From Selenomonadaceae bacterium (GTDB lineage: Bacteria; Bacillota; Negativicutes; Selenomonadales; Selenomonadaceae): 64,000 bases of DNA. The notes beneath the pieces are model-generated. The model had not been told where the DNA came from, did no database searches, and saw only the letters and a list, made by a program, of their open reading frames with translations. Position numbers and translations under genes: made by a program. Position 1 is the first letter of the stretch; every line of letters begins with the position of its first letter. The DNA is taken from the NCBI GenBank assembly GCA_017549815.1, contig JAFYNH010000006.1, positions 1 through 64,000 of the forward strand, read 5' to 3'. Of the stretch, positions 691 to 32,889 are shown in pieces.

Positions 691-3662
691 TTCGTGCCTG
701 TAATCAAAGTACTATTGGCGGAATTGTTTGTATATCTGATTTCGTTGCCGTCAACGCCGCCGCTATCTTCTTCGATTAAGCCATTAATAACAGTTACTGC
801 GCCCGTGAAGCCTTTCAAATCGATCGTGCCTCTGACCGCGTTGTTTTTCTTTATAGTGATTATGGAGCCGTCCCGCGTCGCAGTGAAAGAGTTGGGAATA
901 AGAATCGTATCGTTTTCCGTGAAGCCAATGATGACATCTTCGCCGAATTCAGCGTTATATGCGAAACAGTTCCCGCCTTGATCTCCAATTCTTCTCATGG
1001 TGTCATTGCCGCTACCGCCGATTATCGTTGAATTGTAGCTTGTAAAACTGATTGAGTCGTCACCCGCGCCCGCGTCTATAAAGTTAAGAGCATTGTGAGA
1101 TGCAATACTGTCATAATAATAAGCAAAAGTTATTGTGTCGTTATCGTTGCCGCTGTTAATCGTATTCTGACTACCAGTTACGCTTATGGTGTCTTTTCCT
1201 GCTCCCGTCTTGAATAAGCTCAGAAGACCGCCGGCTTTCAAATAATCGTCATCTGCGCCGAGATCTACATAATTCACGCCAATGTTGCTGTAAAGAATTT
1301 CGACGGAATCTTTTCCCGCGCCACCGTAAACGATATTCTCACTGTCGGTTATGACAGCGGAGTCGTTGCCGCCACCGAGCAAGAGAACATTTTCATTGCC
1401 AGCGACAGTCGCTAAGTCAATGCCGTTGCCGCCGACCAATGTATTATTTACCGCTTGCCAATCGAAGAAAATTTTATTGGTGCCGCTGTCGCCCGTGAGG
1501 ATTGTATTTTCCATGCCGCTTGTAATTGTTACGGAATTGGAGCCTGCGCCGACGTTGATATTGTTGTTATTGCCAGTGTTAGTGACTTCATCGTTACCTG
1601 CGCCCGCGTCAATGCTGTTGTTACTGCCGCTGACGTTGATTGAATCGGCTCCTGTGCCCGTCTTCAAAGTGTTGTTGTTACCAAGCCCGTCGATTTTCCA
1701 TGCATTGTTGTTAGTCGTGATATTTTGTTTAAAAGCTGAATTCGGAGTGTAGACATAATTTGTAGCCGCGCCGACGCTGTACTTTGCTTCTGTAGTTGTG
1801 GCGACGGGATTTTGTTTGGTATCGCCGACGTAATAGGTTGCGTTGCCCGACGAAAGACTAACCTTCGCGATCATCTCGGAAGGAACAAAAGTACCCTGCG
1901 TATCAAGGGCGGTCTGTTTTGCTAAGTAGCGAAGGAGCATATAACCGCCAGCGTAGGAGTAATCCTCTCCGGTGTATTCGTCAGTTAAATTTATAACCGA
2001 GCTTAAAGAGTCGGCATTTTTAGCGAGCTGTTTAATCGAATAGGTGCGCTTGTCGTCTATGCCGTGCGTGACTTCCGCCATGCCTTCTGATATAAAATTT
2101 GGCAAGTACGCAAAATAATTATCTTTAGCCGCCATAAGGGCATGAGTAAATTCGTGCGCAATAGTTCTGTCAAGGTAAACGAAAGTATTTTCTGCGCCGC
2201 CGTCAACGTCATTATAATTTACTAGGTCGTCGTAATAATCTTTGTTGATGATTAAATCAAGCTGGGTAGCTGCGCCAGAGACAGGAGAATAATAGTAACT
2301 TACAGCCGCCAACGCATTTGAGCCGCCTTCGATTTTATCGAAATGCAAGTTAATAACTAGGGGTGTGGCGTCGTCGTCAAGGAAACTATAACCGTAATCG
2401 AAATAATTGAGATTGAGGCTTTCCTTCATCCACCATTTATAAATCGAGGCGACAATGTATTTCTCATACTCGTTGCCCGTGTCGCTCGAAGAAGAATCGG
2501 TTCCCACGTCGTCAAATGAATCGAAAGTTTTAAGTACGGTATAACTTCCGTCCTTGTTTTTATAGCGTCTGTCGCAAACGTTCAGAGTTAAGCCGTTAAA
2601 CGTAAAGCTCATAAGTTCGGGATAAACCGACGCGACTTGCCCAACGATTGAACCTTGTTTAGCCGCCGTATTAGTCGAGACAAAATTGGCATCAGTATCA
2701 GTGCCGGAGACGATAAAGCCGCCGACGGGCACAGGGTCTGAAGGATTAATCGCCTTCGTCAGGTCGACTTTGATAACTTTATTGCCGCTGTAAGTCGTCG
2801 TGCCTTGCGTGTTGAAATAGTTATCGTTGCCGTCAAGAATAATGTTGCTTGCATTGGTTGCCGAGTCTGCATTGACAACGCCTCTACTCGACTTTGAAGG
2901 CGTGGGATTACCGGGCAAATCGCCGCTCGTCTGCGCGGTATCTTCTTCAACCCAAATTTCGTCGCCCGAACCTTTAACGTCGGTTTGAGTGATGGCGTCG
3001 CCGAGAGTGATAACGCTGGTGTTACCTCTCAAAATGTTTTTAGTGGCGTCGTAGTTTAAAAGGACTACGGACTTAACGGAGCTGTCGATAAAGATTGAGT
3101 TGTTACCGTTTGCAACGTCAATCGTGGCGGTCGCACCTTTAATCGTTATAAAGTTATTTCCTGCGCCCGCGTTGATTGAATCTTCGCCGCCCGAAATAAT
3201 TGTATCGTTGCCCGCCGTCGCCTTAATTATCCAGCCGTTAGTGCCCGTGTCGATACTTTGCGGAGCGTCGGTCATTGCCTCGTAGTAGTTGCCGTATTCG
3301 GGCACAATATTTGCCTTGCTTTTTTCTACGCCCGTACCGATAACCGCGCCGCTATCTAAGGTGATATTTGCGTCGGAGCCAGTAATCGCGCCCGTGTCGA
3401 TGTTATCTAAATCGATGCCGCACTTTTCCTTAAGAAAATTAATCCAACCGTTTGAAGAATCTGCTTCGTTGTAACTTCTGCAATCGCTGATGAAACTGTC
3501 GATTAAATCTTGGATACCATTAAAGTTCGAGCTTGCCTTTATTGCTTGGTCGAGAATGTCTTTGGCTAAAGCTTGTTTATTCGCTTCGCTCGTGCCGCTT
3601 GACTTAAAAGAATGGGTATCCAATGCCTCCATGAAATTTTTGATGACTTGTTGCGGTGTCAT
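1..3662 (-). CDS. RTX-like repeat protein with HEFTH zinc metalloprotease domain (3' end outside window)
   Basis: The reading frame is open from an ATG at 3662 (AAAGGAG ribosome site 9 nt upstream) to the left edge, giving 1,220 codons with no stop. There is no N-terminal signal peptide, which fits type I secretion through a C-terminal signal, but that end is not visible. Residues 1-120 are helical and polar. A first block of glycine/aspartate repeats of GAGNN or GGND type follows near 140-200. Around residues 503-507 lies HEFTH, with downstream glutamates in FISEGMAE, as in gluzincin-type zinc peptidases. From about residue 640 onward the protein is almost entirely DxGxGND-like beta-roll repeats, which in RTX proteins bind Ca2+. 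The C-terminal part has an exact 36-residue period. Likely role (inference): a calcium-stabilised secreted or surface protease. The substrate is unknown, and no type I transporter lies in the window. Confidence 0.85.
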   Translation of the reverse strand, partial: MTPQQVIKNFMEALDTHSFKSSGTSEANKQALAKDILDQAIKASSNFNGIQDLIDSFISDCRSYNEADSSNGWINFLKEKCGIDLDNIDTGAITGSDANITLDSGAVIGTGVEKSKANIVPEYGNYYEAMTDAPQSIDTGTNGWIIKATAGNDTIISGGEDSINAGAGNNFITIKGATATIDVANGNNSIFIDSSVKSVVLLNYDATKNILRGNTSVITLGDAITQTDVKGSGDEIWVEEDTAQTSGDLPGNPTPSKSSRGVVNADSATNASNIILDGNDNYFNTQGTTTYSGNKVIKVDLTKAINPSDPVPVGGFIVSGTDTDANFVSTNTAAKQGSIVGQVASVYPELMSFTFNGLTLNVCDRRYKNKDGSYTVLKTFDSFDDVGTDSSSSDTGNEYEKYIVASIYKWWMKESLNLNYFDYGYSFLDDDATPLVINLHFDKIEGGSNALAAVSYYYSPVSGAATQLDLIINKDYYDDLVNYNDVDGGAENTFVYLDRTIAHEFTHALMAAKDNYFAYLPNFISEGMAEVTHGIDDKRTYSIKQLAKNADSLSSVINLTDEYTGEDYSYAGGYMLLRYLAKQTALDTQGTFVPSEMIAKVSLSSGNATYYVGDTKQNPVATTTEAKYSVGAATNYVYTPNSAFKQNITTNNNAWKIDGLGNNNTLKTGTGADSINVSGSNNSIDAGAGNDEVTNTGNNNNINVGAGSNSVTITSGMENTILTGDSGTNKIFFDWQAVNNTLVGGNGIDLATVAGNENVLLLGGGNDSAVITDSENIVYGGAGKDSVEILYSNIGVNYVDLGADDDYLKAGGLLSLFKTGAGKDTISVTGSQNTINSGNDNDTITFAYYYDSIASHNALNFIDAGAGDDSISFTSYNSTIIGGSGNDTMRRIGDQGGNCFAYNAEFGEDVIIGFTENDTILIPNSFTATRDGSIITIKKNNAVRGTIDLKGFTGAVTVINGLIEEDSGGVDGNEIRYTNNSANSTLITGTNYDDTIDNSGNKVTIKALSGEDEIVNTGASVSIDAGAGSDVIGNGGTKVTISGGAEDDYITNVGDSVSIDAGAGHDTIDNSGNNVTIKALGGSDKIVNTGTSVSIDMGDGVNVIANGGTKVTISGGANEDYIANLSDSVSIDSGAGNDYLENEGNEVTIKALNGADEISNTGASVSIDAGAGNDTISNSGANVTISSGADNDYITNLGDSVSIDSGAGNDTISNSGANVI

Positions 3663-7243: not shown

Positions 7244-9874
7244 TTGAAGATAACAGGTTTAACCGACGCGCAAGTTCAGGAGGCTAAGGCGAAGTACGGC
7301 GACAACAGCATTACTGAACAAGCTCGCGAAGGTTTTTGGGATAAGCTCAAGGGAAATTTCGACGACCCAATTATAAAAATTTTGCTCTTCGCGCTCGCGC
7401 TTAACGTCTTTTTTGCGTTCATGGGTAAGGCGGAGTGGTATGAATCGGTCGGTATCGCAATAGCGGTTTTGTTGGCGACAATGGTATCGACTTTTTCCGA
7501 ATACAAAAACGAAAATGCTTTTCAAAAATTGCAGGCAGAGGCGTCGCTTATAAAGTGTAAAGTCTATCGTAACGGCGCAGTTGCCGAAATTCCGATTAAC
7601 GAAATAACTATGGGCGATTGTGTCATGTTGCAGACGGGCGACAAAATCCCTGCTGACGGTGTGATTATCGACGGCTCTATTCAAGTTGACCAATCGATTT
7701 TGAACGGTGAGGCTAAAGAAGAAACTAAAACTCCCGCGCCCGATTCCGCTACCGAAACCGAATCCGCCGAGAGTACCGATTTTCTTAATCCGCATAAAGT
7801 TTTCCGCGCAGCAGTCGTAGCGGGCGGCAATGCCGTTATGAAGACTGTCACGCTCGGCGACAATACCGTTTATGGAAAAATCGCGGGCGAGTTGCAAATT
7901 GATGAAGACCGCGATACTCCGCTTAAATTAAAACTCACCGACCTTGCCGGGCAAATTTCTAAGTTCGGTTATATCGGCGGTGTCGCGATTGCGGTTGCGT
8001 TCATGTTCGAGCGAATTGTTATTCAAAATAATTTCGACGGCGCGTTAATGGCGGCTTATTGCTCCGACTGGATGAACGTTTTAAATAGTCTCGTCGAAGC
8101 GGTTATGCTTGCCGTTATAATTATCGTTATGGCGGTTCCCGAAGGTTTGCCGCTCATGATTGCGATTGTTTCTGCGCAGAATATGGGCAAGATGTTAAAG
8201 GATAACGTCCTTGTCCGTAAAACGTCGGGCATTGAGACGGCGGGCAGTTTGAACATTTTATTCAGCGATAAGACGGGCACGATTACTAAAGGTTTACTTG
8301 AAGTCGTCACGTTCCTTGACGGCACGGCGACTTTTACGGACACTTTCGACAAGCTCAGCCAAAAACTTCAATCGCTTGTTTCGCTTAGCGTCCGATTTAA
8401 CAGCGGCGCAGTTATTACGGGCGATAAGATTGTCGGCGGCAACATGACGGACAGGGCGTTGTTAGGTTTTATAATCGGCAAGGACAATCCTCCCAATGTC
8501 AAGGTCGGCGACACGGTTCCTTTCGACAGTGCGAAAAAATATTCTATGGCGAAAGTCAGCGGCGATTATGATTTATGGCTTATCAAGGGTGCGCCCGAAC
8601 GTCTTTTGGACAAATGCTCTTACTACTACGACAGCAACGGGCAAAAGCAAAAACTTAATTCACACGCGCAGATTAACGCTAAGATTGACGAACTTGCCAA
8701 CCGTGCGATAAGGACGCTTGCGCTTGTTACTTACGACGGCGAAGTTACGGACGGCAATATTCCCGACAGCGGCTTAACTTTTGTAGGTGTAACGGGCATT
8801 CGCGACGACGTGCGCCCCGACGCCATTAAAGCTATTGAGCAAGTTCACAGTGCGGGCGTTCAAGTCGTCATGATTACGGGCGACAGAAAAGAGACCGCGC
8901 AGGCTATTGCTAAAGAGGCGGGGCTTATCGAAATTGACGACGCGATTGTTATAACGAGTGCCGAACTCAACGCAATGAGCGACGACGAAGTTAAGCAAAA
9001 TCTCCCGAAGATTCGCGTTATTGCTCGCGCTTTACCGACGGATAAAAGTCGTTTGGTTAGGCTTGCACAGGAATTGAATTTGGTTGTCGGCATGACAGGC
9101 GACGGCGTAAACGATTCGCCCGCGCTTAAAAAGGCTGATGTCGGCTTTGCTATGGGCGGCGGCACCGAAGTCGCTAAAGAGGCAAGCGAAATTGTTATCC
9201 TTGACGACAATTTTAAATCTATAGGTCGCGCAATCCTTTATGGCAGAACCATATACAACAACATTAGAAAATTTTTGATATTCCAGTTGACGATAAATGT
9301 TGGAGCTGTTTTAATCTCGTTTGTATGTCCTTTACTCGGTTTAGAGAATCCTTTGACAATTACGCAGATTTTGGCAGTAAATCTTGTCATTGACGTTCTT
9401 GCGGCTATGTCATTCGGCGGCGAACCAGCTTTGTTGGAATATATGAACGAAAAACCTAAGAGGCGCGATGAAAATATAATTAGCCCATATATGTATTCTG
9501 CCATAGCAACAGGGGCGACGTGGAGTTTTATAATGGGATTGATTTTCTTGCTGACAGATTTTTCACATTCTCATTTTCGCGACAACGAGGCATTGATGAC
9601 AGGATATTTTGTTTGGTTCATATTTTTGGCTGTCGCTAATGCCTTTAATACTCGAACCAATAAACTAAATCTCTTCAGTCATCTCAGCGAAAATCCAGAC
9701 TTCTTAAAAGTAATGGGACTTATCGTCGTTGTCCAAGTATTATTTGCGGAATTTGGCGGCGTAATTATGCGTTGTTTTGGATTGACGATTAATGAATGGA
9801 TATTTGTAACTGCTTTTGCACTAACGATAATCCCAGTTGACATGATTCGTAAGCTTATTGTCGGCTCGAAGTGA
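7244..9874 (+). CDS. Calcium-transporting P-type ATPase (P2 type)
   Basis: This 876-residue protein opens with a TTG start after GGAGGT. It has an N-terminal cation-ATPase cytoplasmic domain, transmembrane helices near residues 45-85, an actuator domain with LNGEAKEE, and helices with the PEGLP ion-site motif. The phosphorylation motif DKTGT follows near residue 342 and the hinge TGDGVNDSPALKKAD near 617-631. Several C-terminal helices with NPLTITQILAVNL end the protein. This is the layout of SERCA/PMCA-like calcium pumps, which expel Ca2+ from the cytosol. The actuator motif reads NGEA instead of the usual TGES, a substitution seen in some members. It is the last gene of the TerD-GT2-nucleosidase cluster, 15 nt after the previous stop, which suggests that calcium export and the Ca2+-binding Ter protein are expressed together. 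Confidence 0.93.
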   Translation: MKITGLTDAQVQEAKAKYGDNSITEQAREGFWDKLKGNFDDPIIKILLFALALNVFFAFMGKAEWYESVGIAIAVLLATMVSTFSEYKNENAFQKLQAEASLIKCKVYRNGAVAEIPINEITMGDCVMLQTGDKIPADGVIIDGSIQVDQSILNGEAKEETKTPAPDSATETESAESTDFLNPHKVFRAAVVAGGNAVMKTVTLGDNTVYGKIAGELQIDEDRDTPLKLKLTDLAGQISKFGYIGGVAIAVAFMFERIVIQNNFDGALMAAYCSDWMNVLNSLVEAVMLAVIIIVMAVPEGLPLMIAIVSAQNMGKMLKDNVLVRKTSGIETAGSLNILFSDKTGTITKGLLEVVTFLDGTATFTDTFDKLSQKLQSLVSLSVRFNSGAVITGDKIVGGNMTDRALLGFIIGKDNPPNVKVGDTVPFDSAKKYSMAKVSGDYDLWLIKGAPERLLDKCSYYYDSNGQKQKLNSHAQINAKIDELANRAIRTLALVTYDGEVTDGNIPDSGLTFVGVTGIRDDVRPDAIKAIEQVHSAGVQVVMITGDRKETAQAIAKEAGLIEIDDAIVITSAELNAMSDDEVKQNLPKIRVIARALPTDKSRLVRLAQELNLVVGMTGDGVNDSPALKKADVGFAMGGGTEVAKEASEIVILDDNFKSIGRAILYGRTIYNNIRKFLIFQLTINVGAVLISFVCPLLGLENPLTITQILAVNLVIDVLAAMSFGGEPALLEYMNEKPKRRDENIISPYMYSAIATGATWSFIMGLIFLLTDFSHSHFRDNEALMTGYFVWFIFLAVANAFNTRTNKLNLFSHLSENPDFLKVMGLIVVVQVLFAEFGGVIMRCFGLTINEWIFVTAFALTIIPVDMIRKLIVGSK

Positions 9875-9877
9875 AAA

Positions 9878-10981
9878 TTATTCGTCACGTGCCAATAAAT
9901 ATTCAATAGGCTTGCCGAAAATCTCGGCGAGCTTTTCTTTTTCTCTTTCCATAAAACTACGTTCACCGCGCATTTTGCGAGCAACAGAATTTTTCTCCAA
10001 ACCCATTAGCTCCGCAAGCTTGGCATATGAAATTTGGCGAACATCCAATTCGGCTTTCAAATTCTTATAGGGACTTTTACCGCGATTTTTTGATGAAGAT
10101 TTAACGTAGCCGCCGTCGTCGTCGCGCTGAAACAAATAATCGATTGGCTTATTGAAAAATTCCGCGAGCTTGGCTTTATCGTTTTCCGTAAAATTTCTTC
10201 TGCCATGCATCTTTTCAGAGACGCTTGAGCTATGTATGCCAAGAATTTTTGAAATGTCAGTATATGTGAGTTGGCGATTGTCGATTTCATTCAGCAAATT
10301 TTTGAAGGGAGTTTCGCCGCGATTTTTCTCCGAAATTTTTATGCAAGTTTCCTGCGGACGCTCTGTTCCATAGATGGGATTTTTCTCACCTGTACGAGAT
10401 TCCGACATTCTGTCGCGTGTTTCGTCTTTGGGAATTTGCCCTTTTTTCGCCTTAGAAAGATTTGCGCAATGTTCAGGTGAGCGAATTTTTCCTGTGAGTG
10501 CCTTTGAAATATTAGCACCGACTTCGGGTTTGCGTTTCTTGCCTTTACGTGCTGCTGATAAATTTGCACAATGTTGAGGAGAGAGTTTCTTACCTTTTTG
10601 TGCCGCTGAAATGTTTGCACACTGTTCAGGCGTTCTTTTTTTGCCAGTATTTGCAGCAGAAACTCTTGCTCGCATTTCGTCCGTCCAGCCGACTACTCCG
10701 TCGCCGCCGTCAGTGCGATTGTAACCCGTCGGGCATTTGCTCCTAAGTGCGGCAATATAAAATTTTTCCCACTTGTCGAGTTCCTCTTTTGAAGAGCAAC
10801 TTTTGATGACGCCGTAACGGAAATTATTCTTACCGTACTTTTTAATTGCGTTGCCGATTGCAGTATCTCTCTTGGCGTGTTCCTTGAATCTCCTTTTTAA
10901 CGGCTTAACGGTTTGCCCGACATACTTCTTGCCGTTGACCATGTTCCAAATGAGATACACCACTCCGAATACTACCGTCAT
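9878..10981 (-). CDS. GIY-YIG homing-endonuclease-like protein with NUMOD3 repeats and two C-terminal HTH units
   Basis: The likely start is the ATG at 10981 (AAAGGCGG upstream), giving 367 residues; a longer form from 11038 is possible. Residues 1-90 form a GIY-YIG nuclease domain (GVVYLI, YVGQT, an arginine in RRFKEH and NRTDGG). Residues ~95-205 hold five to six NUMOD3-type DNA-binding repeats of about 17 residues (TPEQCANIS, SPQHCANLS, KPEVGANIS, SPEHCANLS). The rest consists of two related ~70-residue units that start KNRG-SP/TP and carry a lambda-repressor-like helix-turn-helix (DISKILGIHSSSV; KLAELMGLEKNSV). GIY-YIG enzymes with NUMOD modules are typical free-standing or intron-borne homing endonucleases. 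The gene converges on the Ca2+ ATPase with a 3-bp gap. No intron is evident here. Confidence 0.85.
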   Translation of the reverse strand: MTVVFGVVYLIWNMVNGKKYVGQTVKPLKRRFKEHAKRDTAIGNAIKKYGKNNFRYGVIKSCSSKEELDKWEKFYIAALRSKCPTGYNRTDGGDGVVGWTDEMRARVSAANTGKKRTPEQCANISAAQKGKKLSPQHCANLSAARKGKKRKPEVGANISKALTGKIRSPEHCANLSKAKKGQIPKDETRDRMSESRTGEKNPIYGTERPQETCIKISEKNRGETPFKNLLNEIDNRQLTYTDISKILGIHSSSVSEKMHGRRNFTENDKAKLAEFFNKPIDYLFQRDDDGGYVKSSSKNRGKSPYKNLKAELDVRQISYAKLAELMGLEKNSVARKMRGERSFMEREKEKLAEIFGKPIEYLLARDE

Positions 10982-23472: not shown

Positions 23473-23508
23473 TCCCGTCACTCGACTTGAGCAGCGGGAA
23501 TTTTTTTA
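23473..23508. terminator. Bidirectional terminator
   Basis: TCCCG and CGGGA arms with an inner CTC/GAG pairing are followed by eight T on the plus strand and a T-rich stretch on the minus strand. It serves the repeat-protein gene and the convergent phosphoesterase gene. Confidence 0.6.
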
Positions 23509-24183
23509 ATCACTCTGCCAAATCTTATCGCTCAAAATATCTATGCAAGAAATTTTCCCGTCTGGCATGAACGAGCCAGTATCCATAAGCGTAATTTTAT
23601 TCTTTAGGCGAATCGGATAGTACCAATTGCGCTTGATAAACGGCGTCGGCGTATGCCCGCAAATGATATTCGCCTTGCCCTTGTAACCGTTATAAAATTT
23701 CTCGCGAATCCAAAGTAAATCTTCTTCCGATTGTTCTTCCAACGGCTTATCTGGATTCAAGCCCGCGTGTACAAAAATATAATCCTCGCCGTTAATTTCC
23801 ATTTGATGAAAATAAGGACGATTGTTTATGAAGTCCATAGCTCGCGGAAATGCCGACGGGTCTTTTTTACGCCACTCCTCGAACTCCGCCTTAGTCTTAT
23901 TGCCGCCGTTCGGGAGCCAAATATATCCTTCGGTGCCGCCCAGCGCGTAATAATACAACATCATCTGTTCATGATTTCCGCGCAGAGCTACGACATTAGG
24001 CTTTTCGCTCATTTCCATTGCCCAGCGCAGGCAACGCATATTTTCTTCGCCGCGATCCACGTAGTCGCCGAGCAAAATCAGAAAATCCTGCCGCTCGTCG
24101 AATTCGATTTTGTGGAAGAGCGACAACAAGCGCGTAAATTTCCCGTGCATGTCCCCTATTACCAATATCCGCCGATAATCCAT
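23506..24183 (-). CDS. Calcineurin-like metallophosphoesterase (PPP-type serine/threonine phosphatase fold)
   Basis: The likely start is ATG at 24183 (GGAGGCGCG just upstream), giving 225 residues. The family motifs are complete: GDMHG at 10-14, GDYVDRG at 39-45, GNHE at 69-72, and later histidines in FVHAG and CGHTP. These bind two metal ions and define the bacterial PrpA/ApaH-like group, which dephosphorylates proteins or splits dinucleotide polyphosphates. The exact substrate cannot be told. It lies downstream of, and in the same direction as, the TerD-vWA gene and is a plausible partner in the Ter module (inference). Confidence 0.88.
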   Translation of the reverse strand: MDYRRILVIGDMHGKFTRLLSLFHKIEFDERQDFLILLGDYVDRGEENMRCLRWAMEMSEKPNVVALRGNHEQMMLYYYALGGTEGYIWLPNGGNKTKAEFEEWRKKDPSAFPRAMDFINNRPYFHQMEINGEDYIFVHAGLNPDKPLEEQSEEDLLWIREKFYNGYKGKANIICGHTPTPFIKRNWYYPIRLKNKITLMDTGSFMPDGKISCIDILSDKIWQSD

Positions 24184-24286: not shown

Positions 24287-25591
24287 TCAAAAGCCGAAAA
24301 GCCCTTTGACTTTATCAGAAAAAGATTTTTCGGGCGGCGGAGTCGGACGTAAATTTTTAGCCGAGCCGTCGAGTATGCCTTTATCTTTAGCTAACTTAAG
24401 CCACGCTGGAAATTCATTAAGCAAGCGAGAATAAATTTCTTCGTTCGGTACCGATTTAAAATCGTCAAGCGCGAAAAAATTTGCATTGTCAATATAACGC
24501 CCGTCCATATCATCCAGCTTTTCGAGGATGCCGTAATCTTTGCCGCTTACGCCGACGAATTGCCAGAATATCGGCAGGTACGACGACTCAATCAAAAGTC
24601 TTTTTATCGCGCCCGTCCTGTAAATGCCGCCGTCGGTAATGAAAACGGTATACGCGGGCAAAGTAATCGTCTCGTATTCGGCGATAATTTCTTTCATAAC
24701 AGCAGGTTCGTTGTTAGTGCCGCCAAGAGAACGTTGTAATTCCTTCCAATCGGAAGGGACGGCTTGCTCGTAATTCTTCATATTGACGGAAGGACGACGT
24801 TCACAATTACTGCCGTAATACCAAAAATCAAGTTCGCTGTCGTCGTCGAATTGAACTGCAACAGGCAAGACTTTATTAACAATCTCTTGAACGGTTCCGT
24901 CTTTGTAACTGTGATTCATTGATCCCGAAATATCCAAAACCAGCGCGACGCGAGCCACAACGTCCAAAAGTTTTCTTTTCTCCAACTCGACTTTGAGCGG
25001 CTTAACCAGAGAAATTAATTTCGGAGCACCATCGGCAATTTTTTTCTCCAGAGAAATTTTTTTAGGAGTGGGAGGAGGAGTTTCCTCTTTAATTTCTTCG
25101 CCGCCGTAAAAGGCAAGGAGTGTGTCGAGTCCGCCATTAAAGCCGCGTGCTACGACGTTAAATCGCCAGCCGTCCTTCCGATAAATTTCAAGCGACGTGA
25201 TAGCTTTTTCCTGTTCAAAGTCGCCGCCGCTAAAGGTTGCAGAGATTTCATCGCCGATAAAAATTTTGTGCGAAGAAATTTCACTCATAACGCCCGCGCC
25301 GTCAATCGAGCCAGTAAACACCAGCTTATTAATCGTCTGCGGCAAGTCGTTCAGCCTAATCGAAAACTCCATGCCCGACGGAATTTTTTTACCGACAATC
25401 TCACCGCTCGGCGAGCTAAGCTGATTATAAAAAATCATATACCTATCGTCGGAAAGTTTATCATCCTTGTCGACGCCAAAGCAACAAAAATCATAAGTTG
25501 CCGCGCCCTCAATCTGCAACTTAATCTTCAATGGACGATTCAAATTAAAATATTTTTCGAGTTTATCACGTGTGCCGCGTTCAGCAATCAT
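24287..25591 (-). CDS. TerF-like protein: TerD domain fused to von Willebrand factor A domain
   Basis: The start is taken as ATG at 25591 (GCGGAGGTG before it), giving 434 residues; an overlapping GTG three codons upstream is less likely. Residues 1-165 are a divergent TerD-like domain (YDFCCFGVDKDDKLSDDR, MIFYNQ, FTGSIDG, WRFNVVARGFNGG) without the usual GDNLTG motif. After a short proline-rich linker, residues 213-400 form a vWA domain with an intact MIDAS (DISGSM at 220-225; a TDGG loop further on). MIDAS motifs bind a divalent metal and a partner acidic residue. TerF-like proteins join the Ter complex. The gene is expressed away from serS and is followed by the phosphoesterase. Confidence 0.88.
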   Translation of the reverse strand: MIAERGTRDKLEKYFNLNRPLKIKLQIEGAATYDFCCFGVDKDDKLSDDRYMIFYNQLSSPSGEIVGKKIPSGMEFSIRLNDLPQTINKLVFTGSIDGAGVMSEISSHKIFIGDEISATFSGGDFEQEKAITSLEIYRKDGWRFNVVARGFNGGLDTLLAFYGGEEIKEETPPPTPKKISLEKKIADGAPKLISLVKPLKVELEKRKLLDVVARVALVLDISGSMNHSYKDGTVQEIVNKVLPVAVQFDDDSELDFWYYGSNCERRPSVNMKNYEQAVPSDWKELQRSLGGTNNEPAVMKEIIAEYETITLPAYTVFITDGGIYRTGAIKRLLIESSYLPIFWQFVGVSGKDYGILEKLDDMDGRYIDNANFFALDDFKSVPNEEIYSRLLNEFPAWLKLAKDKGILDGSAKNLRPTPPPEKSFSDKVKGLFGF

Positions 25592-25684
25592 GTTAAACAC
25601 CTCCGCAAATTTTATAACATAAAAAATTTGATTTACAAAGCCGATTTTGTTAGACTGTGGAAAAATTTTTGGGAGGAATGAACT

Positions 25685-26953
25685 TTGCTTGATATGAAAT
25701 TTGTACGCGACAATCTGGATTTGATTCGCGCCATGTTAAAAAATAGGAATAACAGTCTTAGCCTTGACAGTTTTGGCGAGTTAGAGCAGAGACGCCGCGC
25801 TATTCTTGCCGAAGTCGAACAGCTTAAAGGTCAGCGCAATACGACTTCAAAGAAAATCGGAGCGATGAAAAAAGCCGGCGAAGATACCGAAGAAATTTCT
25901 GCCTCTGTTCGTCAAATGGGCGTTAAAATTTCCGAACTCGACGCCGAACTCCGCGATATTGAAAATAATCTGCGCGATTTGCTTTTGCATATTCCTAACA
26001 TTCCCGCTGATGACGTGCCGATTGGCGTTGACGATTCGCAAAATCCCGAAGTCCGTAAATGGGGGACGCCGCGCAGTTTCGACTTTGAACCTAAGGCGCA
26101 TTGGGATATTGGGACGGGCTTGAATATTTTCGACTTCGACCGCGCAGGCAAAGTTACGGGCGCACGCTTTACTTTTTATCGCGGGCTTGGAGCGCGTCTT
26201 GAAAGGGCTTGTATAAATTTCATGATGGACTTGCACGCCAACAAGCACGGCTATACTGAAATGCTCGCGCCGTATATCGTCAACCGCGACAGCATGGTTG
26301 GTACGGGACAACTCCCTAAATTTGCCGAAGATATGTTTAAGCTTGAAGGATTGGATTATTACCTCGTGCCGACCGCCGAAGTTCCCATGACGAATTTTCA
26401 CCGCGACGAAATTTTATCCGCCGACACCTTGCCCGAATATTACGCTTGCTACACGGCTTGTTTCAGAGCGGAGGCGGGCGCGGCAGGTCGTGACACTCGC
26501 GGCTTGATTCGTCAACATCAATTTAACAAGGTCGAGTTGATTAAATTCACTAAGCCCGAAGATTCTTGGAACGAGCTTGAAAGTATGGTTGCCGCCGCTG
26601 AGGACGTTTTAAAAGTTTTGGAAATTCCCTATCGCGTCGTGTTGCTTTGTACTGGCGATATGAGTTTCACCTCCGCCAAAACTTACGACATTGAAGTTTG
26701 GATGCCCGCGCAGAATAAATATCGCGAAATTTCTTCCTGCTCCAACTGCACCGATTATCAAGCTCGCCGCGCTAATATCAAGTTCCGCCGCGAAAATAAA
26801 TCTAAGCCCGAATTTGTTCACACTCTTAACGGGTCGGGCATTGCGGTCGGAAGGACGGTCGCCGCGATTTTGGAAAATTATCAGCAGACGGACGGCTCCG
26901 TTAAAATCCCTAAAGCCCTTGTGCCTTACATGGGCGTTGAAGAAATTCGCTAA
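25685..26953 (+). CDS. serS: Seryl-tRNA synthetase
   Basis: This 422-residue protein starts at TTG after GGGAGGAA. It has the N-terminal tRNA-binding coiled-coil (residues ~30-105) followed by a class II core: motif 1 around 180-200, motif 2 ([21 protein letters not shown]), a serine-site [18 protein letters not shown] and motif 3 [16 protein letters not shown]. It charges tRNA-Ser (and tRNA-Sec in hosts that use it). No T-box leader is visible in the 84 bp upstream. Confidence 0.97.
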
Positions 26954-26956
26954 GCT

Positions 26957-27781
26957 ATGGATAAGAAAAAAATAAAAATCGTCGGCATAGGCGAGGGCGG
27001 GGCGCGAGCTGTCGGCAAGATGATTGCGTCGGGCGTCGGAAATAAGAACGTCGATTTCGTTTCAATCGGCAAGGACGAAAATATTTTATTGACGAGCGCG
27101 ACGCGGAATAATATTTTTCTCAATCAAGACCCGCCGACGGTTTATAAGAATATTTCTGCGGCTCTACGCGACGCCAAGTTGATAATTATCGTGGCGGGTA
27201 TCGGCGGCACGTCGGCAACCCAAGCGATTCCGCGTATTGTTTCGCTTGCCAAAAATTCAAACGCAACGACAGTAGCCTTTGTCAGCAAGCCGTTTGTGTT
27301 GGAAAGTGCCGAGCGTAAAAAAAATGCCGAATATTGCCTGAATAGTCTGCGCGAAGTCGATACGACTTTTATATTTCCCGCCGAGAAATTTTTTCTGTTC
27401 CGGCTTTATCAAAAGGAAGTTTCAATCGCCGAGTTGTTCGAGGTTGCCAACGAAATTTTTTATCAAGGCGTGAAAATTTTTCTGGAAATAAGTTCGGATA
27501 AGAGTACGCCTTTGAAATTGGGTGAGGCGTCATTAGGCTATGGCTTTGGCGCGACAGTCCTTGAGGCGATTAAAAGTGCCGTTAAATTCCCTGCGCTTGA
27601 GGAAAACGAAATCAAACATTCTAAGAAAATTTTTGTTAGGCATACGGGCGGCAGTGATTCGGCGTCGAAGAATTTTATTAAGAAAATGATTAGTTCGGAC
27701 GCGAAACTTTTTTGGCAGGTCGACAATTCGCAAGGAGAAAAAACTTTCGCCGCGATAATTTTCAGCAGGAAGGAAGGCTGA
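26957..27781 (+). CDS. Divergent FtsZ/tubulin-superfamily protein lacking the T7 loop
   Basis: This 274-residue protein aligns by eye along most of FtsZ. IKIVGIGEGGARAVGKMI matches the N-terminal nucleotide site. AGIGGTSATQAIPRIV near 80-95 replaces the tubulin signature GGGTGTGAAPVVA, with several glycines lost. FVSKPFVLES matches VVTKPF, and EANEIFYQGV-like residues 162-172 match the helix before the T7 loop. The catalytic T7 loop (NxDFxD) is replaced by ISSDKSTPLKLG. GEASLGYGFGATVLEAIKSAVKFPALEE matches the C-terminal domain start. The FtsZ C-terminal tail is missing. GTP binding is doubtful and GTPase activity in a filament is unlikely (inference). The gene directly follows serS (3-nt gap) and overlaps no other gene. 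A regulatory or structural FtsZ-like role is possible; it is not the main ftsZ. Confidence 0.72.
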   Translation: MDKKKIKIVGIGEGGARAVGKMIASGVGNKNVDFVSIGKDENILLTSATRNNIFLNQDPPTVYKNISAALRDAKLIIIVAGIGGTSATQAIPRIVSLAKNSNATTVAFVSKPFVLESAERKKNAEYCLNSLREVDTTFIFPAEKFFLFRLYQKEVSIAELFEVANEIFYQGVKIFLEISSDKSTPLKLGEASLGYGFGATVLEAIKSAVKFPALEENEIKHSKKIFVRHTGGSDSASKNFIKKMISSDAKLFWQVDNSQGEKTFAAIIFSRKEG

Positions 27782-27784
27782 ATC

Positions 27785-28591
27785 ATGATAAAAATTATTC
27801 TCTCCGACATTGATGGCACCTTTCTAACGAACGATAAAAAGACGCCCGCTCTTCATGAAAAGGCGATTAAAGCTGTCGTCGCGAAGGGCTTGCGCTTTGT
27901 CTTTGTCTCTGCGCGGATGCCTGAAGCGATTTATCCGATAACCGACGCGCTTAGTATGGCTCACACGCCCGTTATAAGTTATGGCGGCGGCTTTGTATTG
28001 ACGGAGGAGGCGGAAATTATTTTCGATAAAAAAATGCCCGCCGATGACTCCATAAAAATTTTGGCGGAAATGAAACGTCGTTGGCAAGATATTTCGATTA
28101 ATTATTATACGGGGCGTCGTTGGTTCGTCGAGAAAATGGACGCAAGGATTCAGCATGAAGCCGACATTACGTCCGCGCAGGTTGAGCTTGGAAATTTTGA
28201 CGAACTTTTAAGCAAAAATATTTTCCCGAACAAAATCATGATAATCTGCGAGCCGCCAACGTGTAAAGAAATGGAAAGCGAGCTTGGTAAAAAATTCCCT
28301 GCTTTGAACGTCGTCCGCAGTGCACCACACCTTTTGGAGATTATGGACAAGAGCATTTCAAAGGCGACGGGCATAAAAATTTTGCTTAAACATTATGGCT
28401 TTGAATTCGACGAGGCGATTGCTTTCGGCGATAATTATAACGATGTTGAAATGCTTGAGCTTATTCCGCAAAGTGTGGTTATGGCGAACGCGCCCGATAA
28501 AGTTAAAAAGCTCGCCGCCGCTGTTACTGATTCCAATGAGGACGGCGGCATATACACTTACCTTGCTAAAATTGGAGTTATCGCGCCTTAA
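27785..28591 (+). CDS. Cof-type HAD-superfamily phosphatase (copy 1)
   Basis: This 268-residue protein has ILSDIDGTFL at residues 4-13 (the DxD nucleophile motif), SARMPE, a C2-type cap domain (residues ~85-190) and FGDNYNDVEML as the C-terminal metal-binding motif. Cof/YidA-like enzymes hydrolyse sugar phosphates or cofactors such as FMN and pyridoxal phosphate; the substrate cannot be deduced. It starts 3 nt after the FtsZ-like gene and is a recent tandem duplicate of the next gene. Confidence 0.92.
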   Translation: MIKIILSDIDGTFLTNDKKTPALHEKAIKAVVAKGLRFVFVSARMPEAIYPITDALSMAHTPVISYGGGFVLTEEAEIIFDKKMPADDSIKILAEMKRRWQDISINYYTGRRWFVEKMDARIQHEADITSAQVELGNFDELLSKNIFPNKIMIICEPPTCKEMESELGKKFPALNVVRSAPHLLEIMDKSISKATGIKILLKHYGFEFDEAIAFGDNYNDVEMLELIPQSVVMANAPDKVKKLAAAVTDSNEDGGIYTYLAKIGVIAP

Positions 28592-28606: not shown

Positions 28607-29407
28607 GTGATAAAAATTATTCTTTCCGACATTGACGGCACCTTTCTTAATAAGGATAAGAAACCGTGCTCCCTTCATGAAAAGGCGATTAAGGCTGTCA
28701 TTGCTAAGGGCTTGAAGTTTGTATTTGTCTCTGCGCGAATGCCCGAAGGAATTTATCCGATAACTGACGCGCTGGGCATGGCTCACACGCCCGTTATCAG
28801 CTACAGCGGCGGGCTTGTCCTTACCGAGAACGAGGAAGTTCTTTTCGACAAAAAAATTTCCGCCGACGACGCTAAAAAAGTTTTGGCGGAAATGAAACGC
28901 ACTTGGCAGGATATAACAATCAGTTATTATACAGGTCGCCGCTGGGTCGTTGAGGCTATTGATAAGCGCGTCGAACGCGAGATTCAAAACAGCAAAGCTC
29001 CAGTCGAGATTGGGAACTTCGACGAACTTTTAAGCGCAAATCTTTTGCCGAATAAAATTTTTATCCGTTGCGAGCCGCCGACCTGCGCGGAAATGGAACG
29101 CGAACTTGGCAAAAAATTTCCTATGCTGAACGTCGTCCGTAGTGCGCCTTATCTTTTGGAGATTATGGACAAGAGTATTTCAAAGGCGACGGGCATTGAG
29201 GTTTTGCTGAAACATTACGGCTTCACTGTCGACGAGGCGATTGCTTTTGGCGACAATTATAACGATGTCGAAATGTTCCGCTACATTCCGCAAAGCGTAG
29301 TTATGGCTAATGCGCCCGACAAAGTTAAAAAGTTAGCCGCCGCTGTGACTGATTCCAATGAAGACGGCGGCATTTATACTTACCTTAAAAAAATCGGCGT
29401 GATTTAA
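28607..29407 (+). CDS. Cof-type HAD-superfamily phosphatase (copy 2)
   Basis: This 266-residue protein starts at GTG (28607) behind AGAGGAGGT. It has the same motifs as copy 1 (SDIDGTFL, SARMPEG, FGDNYNDVEMF) and ends in the same PDKVKKLAAAVTDSNEDGG stretch as copy 1. The two copies match at most positions, with differences concentrated in the cap domain (residues 90-180), so they may differ in substrate (inference). The 3' end overlaps the convergent galE end by 4 nt. Confidence 0.92.
   Translation: MIKIILSDIDGTFLNKDKKPCSLHEKAIKAVIAKGLKFVFVSARMPEGIYPITDALGMAHTPVISYSGGLVLTENEEVLFDKKISADDAKKVLAEMKRTWQDITISYYTGRRWVVEAIDKRVEREIQNSKAPVEIGNFDELLSANLLPNKIFIRCEPPTCAEMERELGKKFPMLNVVRSAPYLLEIMDKSISKATGIEVLLKHYGFTVDEAIAFGDNYNDVEMFRYIPQSVVMANAPDKVKKLAAAVTDSNEDGGIYTYLKKIGVI

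Positions 29408-30459: not shown

Positions 30460-32889
<2,430 letters not shown>

Follow-up and report, generated by a model that had tools for sequence, protein, structure and literature searches.

A candidate FtsZ-derived pseudo-GTPase in a genus of the Selenomonadaceae

Kinases offer well-known cases of pseudoenzymes that regulate active members of their own family, and a gene on the 64,000-nucleotide stretch of Selenomonadaceae DNA analysed here raises the question of whether the GTPase FtsZ has given rise to such a protein as well. This stretch, the window, is contig C33 of genome G000 (2.77 Mb, 94 contigs, 94% complete). The gene lies at 26957..27781 on the forward (+) strand, starts with ATG and encodes a putative FtsZ-derived pseudo-GTPase of 274 amino acids; we refer to this protein and its relatives as class E. 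A first-pass annotation, made from the sequence alone, had described it as a degenerate FtsZ paralogue lacking the T7 loop, and this description was borne out by family and profile matches and by the T7 (NxDF) columns, which are empty in all 32 class E proteins. Among the explanations weighed below, the one we favour, tentatively and at somewhat less than an even chance, is that class E arose from FtsZ as a working pseudo-GTPase which attaches to FtsZ but does not polymerise, and which most probably caps or sequesters it.

FtsZ descent and motif losses of class E

Sequence comparison makes the FtsZ descent of class E secure. The window protein passed the Pfam Tubulin model (PF00091) with 49 bits against a cut-off of 33, the Tubulin/FtsZ domain was present in all 17 class E proteins scanned, and FtsZ was the top match of the window protein in a phmmer search of the PDB (1e-17). 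A profile-profile comparison of class E with 14 canonical FtsZ proteins extended over 278 columns and covered both domains (E 4.1e-39), so that the alignment of the N-terminal nucleotide region and the C-terminal domain with FtsZ, proposed in the first-pass annotation, holds. Pfam FtsZ_C was found in 14 of the 17 proteins; the window's own protein is not among these 14, and its homologue of the FtsZ C-terminal domain (27521..27766, +) was located by alignment and profile comparison. The protein stops after this core, with neither the linker nor the C-terminal peptide of FtsZ, and a Pfam scan of its 274 residues returned no second domain above cut-off and no MORN fusion. It matched the NCBIfam ftsZ model TIGR00065 with E 3.6e-27, yet its 95.6 bits lie below the equivalog cut-off of 295.2. 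Judged by its sequence, class E is FtsZ by descent, yet it fails the tests of the ftsZ family in its equivalog score, its T4 and T7 loops and its C-terminal tail.

A fold search with the predicted structure likewise placed class E with FtsZ and gave no different fold. Identity with CetZ was considered and rejected, FtsZ being nearer than CetZ in both sequence and fold. In a tree of 59 proteins, which took in 14 of the 32 class E proteins, the class E rows formed one clade with 100/100 support on a long stem branch (2.42). Class E joined class D, a second degenerate type described below, only weakly (84/85), and the tree program warned of long branches meeting there. The sister group of class E cannot be told from this tree, since the join with class D is one between long branches.

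Motifs were counted in an alignment of ten FtsZ proteins and 32 distinct class E sequences (another alignment, A1, took in 17 of the 32), and all motif coordinates are on the + strand. According to an excerpt of PMC8936486, loops T1 to T4 of FtsZ serve the phosphates, T5 the ribose and T6 the guanine, and T7 acts in catalysis on the neighbouring subunit. In class E, 17 FtsZ residues of the T3 loop are gone between residues 60 and 61 (27134..27139; 32/32). The T4 glycine box GGGTGTG is retained in none of the proteins (0/32), and its remnant in the window protein, at residues 81-89 (27197..27223), is the reduced signature GIGGTSATQ that the first-pass annotation had pointed out. The T6 Asn is replaced in all 32 (Ala in 27, Thr in 3, Val in 1, Ser in 1), and the Asn after T1 (N26 of the canonical FtsZ-A) is Arg in the window protein and Lys, Arg, Gln or His in 31 of 32. 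The emptied NxDF columns mark the T7-loop/H8 deletion site (residues 178-188, 27488..27520); the column of the second catalytic Asp of T7, which falls in a poorly aligned linker, is empty in 18 proteins and holds Asp in 7, by chance or otherwise. No T7 loop (NxDFAD) was found elsewhere in the class E alignment, and helix H8, which follows T7, is absent or shortened in both the alignment and the structure model. The T3 deletion and the loss or shortening of H8 are additions to what the first-pass annotation had noticed.

Other elements of the nucleotide side are kept. The T1 motif G-I-G-E-G-G-A (residues 10-16, 26984..27004) is recognisable in the alignment, with two of the four glycine positions identical in 32/32. 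The H2 Asp (D47 of FtsZ-A), the H7 Phe and the Pro, Glu and Arg of the T5 segment P112...E116...R120 (27290..27316) are retained in every protein, and the H7 Asp (D188) is Asp in 25 and Asn in 7. Class E also has new invariant residues: D40, E41 and N42 of the T2/H2 segment G-K-D-E-N (residues 38-42, 27068..27082), then N52, L55, N56 and D58, and finally P-x-E-K at residues 141-144, within the class-E-specific segment P-A-E-K-F-F-L-F (residues 141-148, 27377..27400) that replaces P-N-D-R-L-L of FtsZ.

Set against FtsZ (TIGR00065; PF00091 and PF12327), class E is thus alike in its two-domain core, its T1, T5 and H7 residues and its profile match over both domains, and the alignments establish that it differs in having lost T3, the T4 box, the T6 Asn, the T7 core and the C-terminal tail, together with H8, and in a score far below the equivalog cut-off. 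From these losses we infer that class E would be unable to bind or hydrolyse GTP normally or to form a normal filament alone. The suggestion that GTP use has been lost is well supported at the sequence level, with T3 and NxDF gone and T4 destroyed in 32/32, while the T5 Glu and Arg and part of the guanine site stay. These remaining residues could still allow weak binding of guanine nucleotide through T1, T5 and the start of H7, making class E a slow switch: the two T1 glycine positions, the T5 Glu and Arg and the H7 Phe are kept in 32/32, followed by the Asp or Asn of H7. However, T3 is deleted, T4 lost and the T6 Asn replaced without exception, and we regard such a switch as very doubtful.

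Selection on class E and its distribution

The losses described above could be those of a gene in decay. The ratio of nonsynonymous to synonymous substitution rates (dN/dS), computed for 21 of the 32 class E sequences (210 pairs), was 0.08-0.23 among the 14 closest pairs, and the open reading frames measure 272-310 amino acids and carry identical deletions in 32/32. Class E is under purifying selection and is not decaying. A decaying pseudogene would fit the lost catalytic motifs and the long stem branch, but it is contradicted by the dN/dS values and the whole reading frames, and we give it almost no credence. The term "degenerate" used in the first-pass annotation consequently stands for the motif losses and falls if it is read as decay. 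A frameshift or assembly artefact was ruled out by the recurrence of the same deletions in 32 proteins from separate genomes; the one TAA counted in some class E rows marks the end of the reading frame, as a check of G017 confirmed.

A search with a class E profile found one copy in each of 32 of the 66 genomes of the genus (329-512 bits), and in 6 of the 14 best assemblies; incomplete assemblies may conceal further copies. Among 380 genomes of the taxonomic class, no class E protein was found outside the genus: there were 33 matches at E<=1e-40, and the extra one, in G145, is a 400-amino-acid frame scoring 140 bits that resembles ordinary FtsZ. Class E is lineage-specific, with no occurrence seen beyond this genus. 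Of the 32 genomes with class E, 27 had at least two Tubulin/FtsZ-domain hits scoring 155 bits or more, against 5 of the 34 without it (Fisher p 1.5e-8, uncorrected for kinship). The genus was compared with the large rumen bacterium Quinella (PMC9585023): the target of the published probe Quin1231 occurred in 0 of 189 family genomes, a result that carries no weight because 16S was detected in 0 of the 66 genus genomes, against 9 of 14 controls in the same search. A genus UBA7018 of the Selenomonadaceae appears in a 2022 study of the camel rumen (PMC9177762).

A candidate action on FtsZ and the other FtsZ-family genes

As an excerpt of PMC8936486 describes it, subunits of the FtsZ filament join T7 side to nucleotide side, and growth is believed to occur at the end that exposes T7. 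The N-terminal face of class E keeps elements that receive a neighbour's T7 side, namely the H2 Asp, the T5 Glu and Arg and an H6-H7 loop. We propose that class E binds the canonical FtsZ of its own cell and would lower or time FtsZ assembly: it would join the T7-exposing, growing end of a filament and present nothing to the next subunit, as a cap derived from FtsZ itself. This end-cap role is suggested because the receiving elements are kept while the protein's own T7 and H8 are gone, and because the T7 core and H8 are gone, class E should not act as a catalytic partner.

Several points weigh against this proposal. The cap role is drawn solely from the anatomy of the protein. The receiving face has lost T3, a contact region, and presumably also GTP, which normally helps to hold the interface. 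The C-terminal half of the class E model was confident only with one FtsZ row in the alignment. Conservation was higher in the N-terminal than in the C-terminal domain of class E (0.658 vs 0.584), but no single face is marked by this, because FtsZ A/B has a similar, smaller contrast (0.777 vs 0.730); the contrast is not specific to class E and singles out neither face. Finally, the profile search did not find class E in 34 of the 66 genus genomes, including 8 of the 14 best assemblies, so class E is dispensable for division in general.

Comparable systems are known. MciZ of Bacillus subtilis is, to our knowledge, not an FtsZ homologue, unlike class E. The action proposed for it in an excerpt of PMC8936486, to cap FtsZ filaments at the end that exposes T7, is the one we propose for class E. 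ARC3 of plant chloroplasts, which the title of a cited work terms a chimera between FtsZ and a different protein, binds FtsZ and inhibits its assembly according to an excerpt of PMC5855766 and is a precedent for an FtsZ-derived inhibitor, likened here by description and not by sequence; unlike class E, which lacks a second domain, ARC3 has a MORN domain. Agrobacterium tumefaciens, as described in part of PMC13170164, resembles the present case in having extra FtsZ copies beside an essential one: of its three FtsZ homologues, the essential one is the only full-length protein, having both linker and C-terminal peptide. Class E differs in its internal T3 and T7 deletions and belongs to another lineage.

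The window's genome holds six FtsZ-family genes: FtsZ A (C56), B (C17) and C (C56), which score 428.9, 437.8 and 311.6 bits, all above the ftsZ equivalog cut-off, and have T4 and T7 motifs, and classes D, E and F. A weak Tubulin-domain match at C91:50218-50481 (22.6 bits, under the Pfam cut-off) was excluded from the six. At locus L042 on C56, the canonical FtsZ-A gene (8780-9949) is flanked by D and F. Class D (7977-8654, 225 amino acids; Pfam and alignment) has a GTPase-type N-terminal domain with GLGGKTGT and no C-terminal domain. Class F (9963-10787, 274 amino acids), directly behind FtsZ-A, has Pfam FtsZ_C alone and a worn T7, PGQPKIDIKAF. Class F follows a canonical ftsZ in 9 of 25 distinct loci examined, including all 6 tree members of the FtsZ-A clade, and class D precedes the canonical ftsZ in 5 of these 9, one of the 5 being partial.

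By sequence, these proteins appear to have lost different parts: D would keep the nucleotide half alone, F the C-terminal half and a T7-like segment beside a decayed nucleotide half, and E would lack the active parts of both faces. This pattern could mean that duplicated FtsZ copies became regulators by complementary loss, with D and F capping opposite filament ends and E holding or releasing FtsZ under phosphatase control. We consider this unlikely as a whole; if true, it would be a filament system whose end caps are made from the filament protein itself. In another arrangement, class E would be a non-catalytic partner in a composite scaffold for division or shape, assembling either laterally or together with D and F. 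The five further FtsZ-family genes of its genome, of which two show distinct kinds of degeneration, and the weak grouping of E with D would fit this, but that grouping is the long-branch join flagged by the tree program, and D and F adjoin ftsZ in record L064, where E was unseen in the record, the rest of that genome not having been searched by name. We judge this arrangement quite unlikely. The L064 record comes from roe-deer rumen.

A pseudo-GTPase of this kind, kept by selection in a bacterium that has six FtsZ-family genes, would supply natural separation-of-function versions of FtsZ, and because the losses differ between the two filament faces, the face used by each paralogue and the end at which the filament grows would become directly testable. 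Among the matches listed from the open-access literature, none described such a family. Two observations are new here: a PPP phosphatase gene immediately precedes class E in 27 of the 32 genomes, and two further degenerate kinds flank one canonical ftsZ.

Other unusual FtsZ relatives were observed. L112 (G025) carries, at 2553-3353 (-) directly behind a canonical ftsZ, a gene for a 266-amino-acid FtsZ-like protein that keeps the T7 segment VNLDFTDL, has lost T3 and parts of T5 and T6, and groups with class F (91/96); by its sequence it looks like an intermediate. L052 (G022) encodes at 878-2620 (+), about 6 kb from class E, a 580-amino-acid protein with two tandem FtsZ_C-like units and degenerate N-terminal parts. 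Having a second FtsZ is the rule across this family: the median number of FtsZ_C proteins per genome was 3 in the genus (66 genomes) and 2 in 29 other genera of the family (123 genomes), and one genome of the family, G165, has six.

Gene neighbourhood and the phosphatase link

The neighbour worth attention is probably the PPP-type phosphatase gene and not serS, the HAD genes or mreBCD. In 27 of the 32 genomes class E comes next after this gene and shares its strand, with a gap of 10-28 base pairs in 13 of 15 loci measured, and 14 aligned phosphatases were whole and highly alike. The window is one of the exceptions: in G000 and in G024 the phosphatase gene is about 3 kb off on the other strand, and in G012 and G088 it is on another contig, in G012 as a fragment at the contig end. 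In these four genomes class E follows serS closely. In G001 no phosphatase gene was found. The window's phosphatase (23506..24183, -; 225 amino acids) is of the PPP family (calcineurin-like) by a Pfam Metallophos match; it also shows a likeness, below the cut-offs, to the ApaH model and to two models named protein-serine/threonine phosphatase.

Neighbours were checked at 20 of the 32 class E loci and at 17 phosphatase loci, of which G064, G085 and G088, having E-type phosphatases, were excluded (n=14). Among the 20 class E loci, 15 had the phosphatase upstream and 6 a HAD gene downstream, and the order phosphatase-E-HAD occurred in G010, G030, G016 and G072. Because the phosphatase gene has a Cof-type HAD gene immediately behind it in 9 of the 14 loci lacking class E, the simplest account is that class E was inserted into a phosphatase-HAD pair that already existed; in the line of the window it stands behind serS.

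This neighbourhood gives rise to the main rival of our proposal that class E binds FtsZ, namely that class E no longer works with FtsZ and is a repurposed FtsZ scaffold, now a subunit that regulates or targets the upstream phosphatase. The close, same-strand pairing with a whole and highly alike phosphatase would fit this, as would the new invariant residues of class E and the persistence of the pair where no HAD gene is adjacent. However, a related phosphatase occurs in 63 of the 66 genus genomes (61 at >290 bits) and class E in 32, the phosphatase-HAD adjacency without class E points to insertion into an older operon, and four genomes have class E behind serS instead. We regard a subunit role as rather doubtful. 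Under the FtsZ-binding proposal, the phosphatase link is a weaker one: the adjacent enzyme may set class E activity or act in the same step.

Co-evolution of class E with a special phosphatase was considered and is unsupported. Phosphatase profile A3 gave 412-500 bits in the 30 class E genomes with a whole phosphatase gene; among the 34 genomes without class E it gave 497 in G064, 490 in G085, 235 in G028, 199 in G005 and 292-407 in 28 others, with two unmatched, but A3 was built from loci carrying class E, and class E may simply track a subset of the genus. The G085 contig stops 34 bases past the phosphatase gene, where class E would start; in G064 the contig continues past the phosphatase gene and class E was not found.

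The immediate surroundings of the window gene are as the first-pass annotation had placed them. The gene directly ahead (25685..26953, +), which we take from its sequence to be the seryl-tRNA synthetase gene serS, ends at 26953. Directly behind lies a Cof-type HAD hydrolase gene (27785..28591, +) above the TIGR00099 cut-off, followed by a second one (28607-29407, +) assigned by likeness; related loci bearing the HAD gene show one copy in place of these two tandem, similar genes. About 3 kb beyond class E, the open reading frame at 30468-31847 is presumably MreB-like, as recognised by its sequence. Between the phosphatase gene and serS lies a gene for a TerD domain fused to a TerF-type vWA domain (24287-25600, -), and relatives of this gene occupy the same place in G012 and G024.
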